The notes below the pieces were generated by a model, which was not told the DNA's origin, did not search any database, and was given only the letters and a program-made list of their open reading frames with translations. The translations under genes and the position numbers were made by a program. A stretch of 55,253 nucleotides of DNA, from the IMG/VR virus record IMGVR_UViG_3300042923_001283, positions 1 to 55,253 of that record. One strand, given 5' to 3'. The DNA is from a virus. Below are positions 40,204 through 52,145 of this stretch, in pieces (the stretch's first letter is position 1; the number at the start of each line of letters is the position of its first letter).

Positions 40204-40764
40204 TCATTTTAATCGCATTATTGCTGAGTCCATCATATCTTGAGTAATTCCGATATAGCGTAATGTGATTGAAGAATTACTATGATTGAACATTTCCATT
40301 AGTAACGCTAAATTGTAAGGATTTTGCCTATAAAGATGATAGCCCCATGTTTTTCTCATAGTGTGACAACCGATTTCTTTTAAACCAAAATGCCGGGCTA
40401 CATTATTCAACATTTTATATGCAGTGCTTCGATCAATAGGTTGTTTTCTTAACCTGCTTTTTGTTTTAATTTGCCTACTTGGAAATAGGTATTCATTATC
40501 ACCTTTACCTTCGATAAATTTTTCAAGATCACTTTTTATCGATGGATGAATAATAAATTTCTTTTTCTTCTTTGTTTTCTGTTCTTGAATATTAACGTGA
40601 GTGCTCTTAACCATTCCCACTTTTAACTGTCGTAAATCACAAACCCTTAAACCGCTATATATTCCAAAACAAAAAAATAAATAATCTCTCATACTTCTTA
40701 ACTTTAAATATTGTTTTACAGCTTCGATTACTTCTGGATCGCGGATAGGTTGAACGAAATTCAT
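40204..40764 (-). CDS. Short tyrosine recombinase (catalytic domain only)
   Basis: 186 aa with a complete active site: R40 (SGLRVCDL), Lys in the KTKKKKK loop, H134-x2-R137 (HTMRKT), H161 and Y170 (HSNSSITLRYIG). No N-terminal core-binding domain. Such short XerC/D-like proteins occur at the late-switch position of Bacillus phages, perhaps acting on dimers or packaging substrates, not integration. A large serine integrase is also present. Confidence 0.85.
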   Translation of the reverse strand: MNFVQPIRDPEVIEAVKQYLKLRSMRDYLFFCFGIYSGLRVCDLRQLKVGMVKSTHVNIQEQKTKKKKKFIIHPSIKSDLEKFIEGKGDNEYLFPSRQIKTKSRLRKQPIDRSTAYKMLNNVARHFGLKEIGCHTMRKTWGYHLYRQNPYNLALLMEMFNHSNSSITLRYIGITQDMMDSAIMRLK

Positions 40765-40778
40765 TCAGAAAACTCCCC

Positions 40779-40973
40779 TCAATCCTCAGTAACTAACTTA
40801 GGAGATAACCCAAATCTTTTTTGCTGCTCCTCAAATTCTTTTAATGCCGATGTTGCATTTTTTGCTTCTCTGGTTACTGCCTTCAAACCTTTTAACGCGT
40901 CAGAACAATCAATATCGATTTTTATAGATTGCTTAGAAATCAAATTTTTGTTTGACTCGCGCTCATCTGCCAT
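40779..40973 (-). CDS. Small 64-aa protein with structured leader
   Basis: ATG 40973 after AAAAGGAG. Basic/helical (SIKIDIDCSDALKGLKAVTRE, KNATSALKEFEEQQKRF). Family not recognised. Its 5' leader folds into a long stem with two inner hairpins (see the regulatory entry). It precedes the tyrosine recombinase by 14 bases and is probably co-transcribed with it. Confidence 0.65.
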   Translation of the reverse strand: MADERESNKNLISKQSIKIDIDCSDALKGLKAVTREAKNATSALKEFEEQQKRFGLSPKLVTED

Positions 40974-40986
40974 GTCACAACAACTC

Positions 40987-41081
40987 CTTTTATTTTTTGT
41001 ATTCAACATCACATTGAGGGGAAGTGATGGCGACACTTGCAGTATGAGCTGCCATGTGATGCTGAATACAAAAAACAAAAG
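40987..41081 (-). promoter_or_regulatory. Three-way-junction RNA leader partly covering the SD of the 64-aa gene
   Basis: Arms 40987-41014 and 41054-41081 are complementary over 28 nt with two exceptions, which are G-U pairs in minus-strand RNA (A-C mismatches if read on the plus strand). The loop holds two hairpins: AAGTG/CACTT (41022-41038) and GCAG/CTGC (41039-41052). The 3' arm ends in AAAAG, the first part of the AAAAGGAG ribosome site. Confidence 0.7.
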
Positions 41082-41104
41082 ACTATTAATGTTCTTGTCT
41101 TTTG
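41076..41104. terminator. Hairpin between small genes
   Basis: CAAAAGAC (41076-41083) pairs with GTCTTTTG (41097-41104). It overlaps the outer arm of the leader structure, so the two folds compete. It may terminate the 61-aa gene transcript. Confidence 0.45.
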
Positions 41105-41125
41105 CTTAATATGTTACTTGCTTTT

Positions 41126-41311
41126 TCATCGTCTTTTTAAAGCTCCTCCCTTGCCACGATACAAACCTTTATTATTGCTACCCATAATTTCGTGCCAATC
41201 TATTTTTTCTTCCTTTTTAGGCTTCGCCTTTTGATGTGATTCGTTCTTAGGTGACTTAATCTTATCCAGTTGCCTCTTTTGTTTTTCAGATAAATGATCA
41301 GATAGCTTCAT
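41126..41311 (-). CDS. Small basic protein
   Basis: 61 aa from ATG 41311 (AGGTG upstream). Very lysine-rich (SEKQKRQLDKIKSPKN, KAKPKKEEKIDW) with a C-terminal GKGGALKRR. Probably nucleic-acid-binding; family not recognised. Lies just downstream of the tRNA gene. Confidence 0.6.
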   Translation of the reverse strand: MKLSDHLSEKQKRQLDKIKSPKNESHQKAKPKKEEKIDWHEIMGSNNKGLYRGKGGALKRR

Positions 41312-41339
41312 AACCAATCACCTTTTCTATATTTATTAA

Positions 41340-41412
41340 CGCCCCTTTGAGGATTCGAACCCCAACTCTAAGACTAGAATTCTCGTGTGCTATCCAATTA
41401 CACTAAAGAGGC
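41340..41412 (-). tRNA. tRNA-Arg (anticodon UCU)
   Basis: 73 nt without encoded CCA. Acceptor GCCTCTT/AAGGGGC, D arm GTGT...GCAC, T arm TGGGG-TTCGAAT-CCTCA. The anticodon loop reads ATTCTAG: T33 then TCT, reading AGA. The anticodon stem is weak (CGAGA/TCTTA, with one mismatch and one wobble), so activity may be reduced. AGA is a preferred codon in such AT-rich genomes. Confidence 0.8.
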
Positions 41413-41568
41413 ATAGAAAAGACGATACCCCCTGATAAGTATCGCCTTAAATTTGACAGTGCTTGTTCAAGGCACAGTCTGCACAAACCAAATTCACGAC
41501 AAAGTCGTAAATAAGAAGGAATTTCCGGGTATTTCCGTACCCTTATATATAGGTGGCATTTGCACGGT
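41413..41568. other. Array of small hairpins between the late activator and the tRNA
   Basis: No gene. Inverted repeats at 41423-41444 (CGATAC/GTATCG), 41459-41475 (GTGC...GCAC), 41496-41508 (ACGAC-AAA-GTCGT) and 41527-41542 (GGGTA/TACCC). Could be a processed leader, an sRNA, or a remnant of a larger tRNA cluster. Confidence 0.5.
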
Positions 41569-41602
41569 AAAAAAAGCCACTTCAACAAAAGCTGAAGAGG
41601 CT
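41569..41602 (-). terminator. Terminator of the sigma-like factor gene
   Basis: GCCTCTTCA/TGAAGTGGC stem (41576-41584 with 41593-41601) followed by T7 on the minus strand; the gene's stop codon is within the stem. Confidence 0.8.
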
Positions 41603-42094
41603 TGAACATAATTTATTTTCTGCTCTCTCAATTGTAGATTGGACAGAGGAGCGTGAAACACATAAATATCTAGCAATCTGTGAATATGATAAACAATGAC
41701 CACGTGACATAAGATAGATTTCTTTTTCTTTTTCTGTTAAAACAGTAAGTGCCTGGTCTATTCTTAATCTATCCGAAATTGAAATAACATCTTCCTCTAC
41801 GTGATTGTCCCATTTGTAAATTCCTTCGTTTGTACTTCTAAAATATCTTTGGATAATTAAAGGATCCATTGGTCGCTCTCTTTGATAAGCAGCCCGTCTT
41901 TCAATACCTCTTTTGTTTCCTGGGCGACGACCTGATTTCATCCATTCAATGGTGTACTCTAAATCAGAGATAATTCCTTTAATGATATCTTCTTCTTCAC
42001 CAGATGCTTTTTCTAGGAGGTTTTTTGTTTCTTTCAGTGTAAGTCTATAATCTTCAACTGTCGCAAATCTTGACGGATTATACTCTAACTCCAT
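41582..42094 (-). CDS. Sigma-70 region 4-like phage transcription activator (late control factor)
   Basis: 170 aa from ATG 42094 (GGGAGG seven bases upstream). The C-terminus has LTEKEKEIYLMSRGHCLSYS and IARYLCVSRSSVQSTIERAE, a sigma region 4/HTH resembling Xpf-type positive control factors. N-terminus helical (TVEDYRLTLKETKNLLEKA). It lies at the border of early and late genes, so it probably activates the late promoter. Confidence 0.8.
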   Translation of the reverse strand: MELEYNPSRFATVEDYRLTLKETKNLLEKASGEEEDIIKGIISDLEYTIEWMKSGRRPGNKRGIERRAAYQRERPMDPLIIQRYFRSTNEGIYKWDNHVEEDVISISDRLRIDQALTVLTEKEKEIYLMSRGHCLSYSQIARYLCVSRSSVQSTIERAENKLCSSLFSFC

Positions 42095-42134
42095 TTTGGT
42101 GCCTCCCGTGGTAAAATAATTAGTAGTGGTATTC

Positions 42135-42158
42135 ACCGGGAGAAATCTCGGTTTTTTT
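42135..42158 (+). terminator. Plus-oriented hairpin in the minus-strand early region
   Basis: CCGGGAGAAATCTCGG followed by T7 on the plus strand, within the leader of the sigma-like gene. It would stop antisense transcription coming from 40-42 kb. Confidence 0.6.
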
Positions 42159-52096: not shown

Positions 52097-52145
52097 GGGT
52101 TATTGCCCCTGTTTATCTCAATAAACAGGGGCAATAACCCTTTTT
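52097..52145 (+). terminator. Perfect 18-bp hairpin with T5 after the integrase
   Basis: Arms 52097-52114 and 52123-52140, loop of eight, then TTTTT. Acts as integrase terminator; the same arm is found again at 5581-5603. Could overlap attP. Confidence 0.85.

Follow-up and report, generated by a model that had tools for sequence, protein, structure and literature searches.

The leader of the N gene in phage lambda contains a hairpin that is processed by RNase III, and this cleavage relieves occlusion of the Shine-Dalgarno (SD) sequence; the early mRNA of phage T7 contains RNase III sites, which are bulged, in long intergenic hairpins just before phage genes. The element considered here is a structured leader of 95 nt on the minus strand (40,987-41,081) of a 55,253-nt viral sequence (IMG/VR record IMGVR_UViG_3300042923_001283, analyzed at its full length and referred to as the window), and it precedes p64, a gene for a 64-residue phage protein. 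It has the feature expected of an RNase III-processed leader, a long double-stranded stem just upstream of a gene, in this case a predicted stem of 28 bp that ends in the SD. As in the lambda N leader, the long hairpin is located just 5' of an SD, within a terminator-governed control region of a phage, and we propose by analogy that SD occlusion may be relieved by cleavage; however, the two have no sequence relation and come from different phages and hosts, and p64 is not known to be an antiterminator. The T7 sites are similar in their position just before phage genes but differ in being bulged and have no sequence in common with the element.

A second comparison is with RNAs that mediate processive antitermination, namely the epsC/EAR RNA (RF01735) of Bacillales exopolysaccharide operons (PMC2864571, PMC8955417) and conAn of pLS20-type plasmids (PMC8955417). 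EAR resembles the element in being a structured RNA at the start of an operon and is found at the equivalent locus in Paenibacillus prophages, but it lies upstream of terminators, whereas the window element lies after one. With conAn, the locus shares an operon with internal terminators in a Gram-positive mobile element, but conAn is a two-component system at the operon start, and no such component was identified in the window.

Fold of the leader and an overlapping hairpin

The minus-strand arms 41,081-41,054 (CUUUUGUUUUUUGUAUUCAGCAUCACAU) and 41,014-40,987 (AUGUGAUGUUGAAUACAAAAAAUAAAAG) pair over 28 positions with no bulge, through 26 Watson-Crick and two G·U pairs. Both the 28-bp stem within a 95-nt leader and the restriction of its G-U pairs to the minus strand had been claimed in a preceding sequence-only reading and are borne out, the two positions being A-C mismatches when read as plus strand. 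The minimum free energy of the minus strand between 40,980 and 41,110 is −44.5 kcal/mol (z = −6.9 relative to shuffled sequences), and the repeat is the top-scoring inverted repeat of the window (21.0, whereas 40 dinucleotide shuffles of the whole window reached no more than 16.6). The runner-up (52,097-52,140; score 20), a perfect 20-bp repeat with a 4-nt loop followed by T5, is a plain, strong terminator on the plus strand. The long stem of the element is itself not followed by a U-tract. The two inner hairpins that had been described, GCAG..CUGC (4 bp) and AAGUG..CACUU (5 bp), are present, though weak. The stem also overlaps the ribosome site as claimed: AAAAG (40,991-40,987), which is paired in the full stem, runs into the SD of p64, AAAAGGAG (40,984-40,991, minus strand), the GAG of which remains unpaired.

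The competing hairpin at 41,076-41,104 is likewise real. In this hairpin, T3 (41,070-41,104, minus strand), CAAAAGAC (41,104-41,097) pairs with GUCUUUUG (41,083-41,076) in a stem of −6.2 kcal/mol that is followed by U6 (41,075-41,070), and CUUUUG forms both the 3' arm of T3 and the outermost part of the long stem. T3 is terminator-shaped, a feature absent from the sequence-only reading. The element occupies a spot where relatives often have a terminator, and T3 is better read as an apparently weak form of the terminator found here in many of them.

No Rfam family matches the element above its gathering threshold, the tRNA family alone passing; Phe_leader (35.4 against a threshold of 55) and similar weak matches look like long-stem artefacts. 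The RF01735 model, which does detect EAR in related prophages, gives no covariance match up to E = 1 in 40,700-41,700 of the window.

Gene order and conservation in a second phage

The locus marks the transition from early to late genes in a tailed Bacillota phage (a Bacillales phage). On the minus strand, it begins with a regulator matching the ArpU/sigma-70 region 4 family (41,582-42,136), presumed to be the late regulator, which is followed by a conserved noncoding stretch with small hairpins (41,455-41,570) that opens with the promoter-like box TGCCACCTATATATAA (41,558-41,541). Next are a terminator-like hairpin, T2 (41,417-41,448; GGCGAUAC..GUAUCGUC, then UUUUCU), a tRNA-Arg(UCU) gene (41,339-41,413) between the promoter region and orf63, and orf63 itself (41,126-41,311; phrog_20406), a small gene of the same module as p64 that encodes 61 residues from its ATG start. 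T3, the element, and p64 (40,779-40,973, ATG at 40,973-40,971; phrog_27153) follow, and after p64 are a short tyrosine recombinase of 186 residues (40,204-40,764; phrog_216, PF00589), the terminase small subunit, and an HNH protein. An in-frame 99-residue open reading frame running through the hairpin from a TTG at 41,078 was rejected, close relatives starting at the ATG of MAD or MAE. Among related loci, boxes similar to TGCCACCTATATATAA occur in L149, L222, L247, and L251-L253, in L222 with a hairpin resembling T2 after the same box, and tRNA-like sequences are present at a similar place in L098, L100, L190, and L209.

True members of the element number two, among 80 p64 leaders and about 1,500 genomes: the window and its only homologue, locus L220 of genome G1072, in which the element (L220:2523-2617) again lies before p64. 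The two loci share a 1.3-kb alignment of 74% DNA identity that spans the ArpU-like gene, p64, and what lies between them, the noncoding stretch being about 85% identical (L220:2041-2160). Purifying selection seems to act on the arms, since they are more alike (53 of 56 positions, 95%) than the third codon positions of orf63 (44/62) and p64 (41/63), which are 65-71% identical. Paired positions differ by four substitutions (G·U to A-U, U-A to U·G, C-G to U·G, and G-C to G·U), of which the arms contain three and the first inner hairpin contains one, and all leave the bases paired as minus-strand RNA. The sequence-only reading had named loss of pairing in homologues as the observation that would count against it, and L220 keeps every pair (32 of 32 tested); the covariance search that it had suggested produced no further members, and the two sequences have four one-sided and no two-sided compensatory changes between them. 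It is rather unlikely that the element is a neutral by-product, a recent, functionless inverted duplication arising through template switching: its occurrence in two phages only, with other relatives managing without it, would fit such an origin, but this does not account for arms so much more conserved than third codon positions or for pairing that survives all substitutions.

In both sequences, all wobbles read as G·U in minus-strand RNA, and by our own estimate the chance of five wobbles sharing one orientation is about 3% if strand is irrelevant. The plus strand of 40,980-41,110 also folds strongly (−38.9 kcal/mol, z = −4.9), which would fit a plus-strand or independent small RNA, but such an RNA, in place of an mRNA leader, is very improbable in view of the uniform orientation of the wobbles and, in the window and L220 alike, the proximity of the element to the SD of p64; R1, a covariance model of the pair of minus-strand sequences, also scores about 57 bits higher on the minus strand, although this is the strand on which it was built.

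The recombinases that follow p64 in the window and L220 are only 44% alike, and the element is therefore assigned to the orf63-p64 module rather than to the recombinase, whose nearest relatives (71-77%) are without it. The sequence-only reading had envisaged a regulatory RNA controlling p64 and perhaps the recombinase: the L220 pairing and the conservation of the arms support a leader RNA on the minus strand ahead of p64, whereas control of the recombinase is unsupported because the element tracks orf63-p64. The same distribution bears on the possibility of a function in DNA, as an operator, cruciform, target of the tyrosine recombinase, or small inserted palindrome. A near-perfect inverted repeat beside a recombinase might suggest this, and relatives such as L006 have TTTTTTATATACAAAAAA at the spot of the element, so that its inner part looks inserted (as an insert of 65 bp, flanked by TA, in the spacer between terminator and SD). 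Nevertheless, a DNA-level element is improbable, as close recombinase relatives lack the repeat, L220 has it with a divergent recombinase, the wobbles are all on one strand, and searches for a second copy in the window, in 399 Bacilli genomes (as DNA), and in 397 genomes of the order (with the RNA model) yielded nothing apart from L220.

The multiple copies expected of a dispersed small inverted-repeat insertion element were not found: the window has a single copy, and the phage and plasmid DNA collections contained none. The R1 search, which also covered 99 loci, returned nothing beyond the window and L220. Weak genome and model matches (L194-L196) were rejected as ordinary SD or terminator-like sequence. 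An exact 17-mer of one arm has ten matches in viral contigs, all without the second arm and taken as chance; the loop pattern AAGTGTC-GCCATCACTTCC has one match, judged to be chance, and the outer-stem pattern with a free middle has one unrelated match, formed by pairing between the U-tract of a terminator and an A-rich start region.

Terminators and long stems in other p64 leaders

Relatives of p64 were drawn from viral contigs, phages, plasmids, and genomes, and those of the recombinase from viral and genome contigs. In 80 nonredundant p64-family leaders, a hairpin with a U-tract ending no more than 48 nt from the SD is present in 40, compared with 30 of 167 other start sites from the same loci (18%); the terminator criterion is simple and the counts are indicative. 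A terminator this close to the SD leaves little room for a promoter, which suggests that the late genes are controlled by antitermination or read-through. The long stem is not needed for p64 expression in general, because in half of the relatives its place is taken by a plain terminator. In 6 of the 80 leaders a long stem lies near the SD (the window, L220, L270, L191, L289, and L310), whereas none of 480 shuffles has one. Those of L289 and L310 are strong terminators lengthened into long stems, whereas L270 (a Priestia plasmid-prophage) and L191 (Geobacillus phage PK3.6) have arms of 16-26 nt before the p64 SD, without a terminator and unrelated in sequence to the window element.

The frequency of terminators at this spot, the hairpin and U6 of T3, and the bases common to T3 and the long stem could also indicate a transcription attenuator, with T3 terminating transcription and the long stem serving as its antiterminator or as one component of a late switch based on antitermination. 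We consider this unlikely, because T3 is weak and the right arm of the stem is made only after the polymerase has passed T3. The stem is therefore unable to stop termination at T3, which leaves translation, stability, or processing as the levels at which it would act.

Long hairpins of other families (TTTTGCTCTTCTT...AAGAATAAAA) are located downstream of the recombinase in phages of the Bacillus cereus group (L033:3495-3601, L068:4793-4871, and L133:3057-3168); the L133 hairpin precedes a relative of orf63 and has a loop motif, CCTGATAAG, in common with the L033 type.

A possible role for the leader at the early/late boundary

The 95 nt are probably a real, narrowly distributed, cis-acting leader of p64. 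Our preferred reading, to which we assign a probability of about 0.5, is that the leader, as part of the minus-strand late transcript, lowers p64 translation or makes it conditional and provides a processing point. It would lie between the weak, terminator-like T3 and the p64 SD, and once RNA polymerase has moved past T3, the U-tract of T3 and the A-rich SD region would form the base of the 28-bp stem. CUUUU could then pair either with the AAAAG of T3, leaving the SD open, or with the AAAAG of the SD, partly closing it. The computed probability that the SD AAAAG is unpaired is about 0.01 for the element alone but 0.22-0.41 with T3 in the window (about 0.09 in L220), and because of this shift T3 and the SD are regarded as rivals for one CUUUU. 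At 28 bp, the stem would suffice for RNase III and is probably cleaved by it; cleavage would yield an A-rich 5' end that is free of structure and has the SD exposed, and in uncut transcripts translation of p64 would be low or conditional. We infer both the effect on translation and the cleavage; as the GAG of the SD is unpaired, repression may be weak. A broader proposal, which we regard as doubtful, is that the element represents a class of phage regulatory RNA, a three-way-junction leader in which CUUUU is swapped between a terminator hairpin and an SD, which would make translation of the first late genes depend on terminator passage or on processing by RNase III. If this were true, the long-stem leaders of L270 and L191, unrelated to it in sequence, would count as independent instances of this device.

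EAR RNA was found about 250-630 nt upstream of the short recombinase in eleven distinct Paenibacillus prophage loci from genomes (L097:2138-2249, L098:2110-2231, L100:1964-2079, L120, L122, L094, L137, L170, L110, L142, and L148), with copies of some of them in viral contigs (L029-L031). It follows late-promoter-like repeats or an ArpU-like gene and precedes the terminator before the first late genes, and it is possibly a late antitermination switch in these prophages; a literature search of partial coverage found no report of EAR in phages. The stretch at 41,455-41,570 is a candidate for a different element with the role of EAR. Upstream of the short recombinase in L022, L115, L093, and L100, a −10-like box is preceded by series of motifs resembling GTGGCA, TGTCCG, or TGCGAC, spaced at intervals of about 11 bp, which are likely to be binding sites for a late regulator.

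Little is understood of how late genes are controlled in Bacillota phages that have ArpU/RinA-type regulators, and the present locus provides a concrete leader RNA where early and late genes meet. First late genes of this type are often positioned directly behind intrinsic terminators, and EAR is located there in the Paenibacillus prophages; taken together, these observations suggest processive antitermination as a late switch in such phages.
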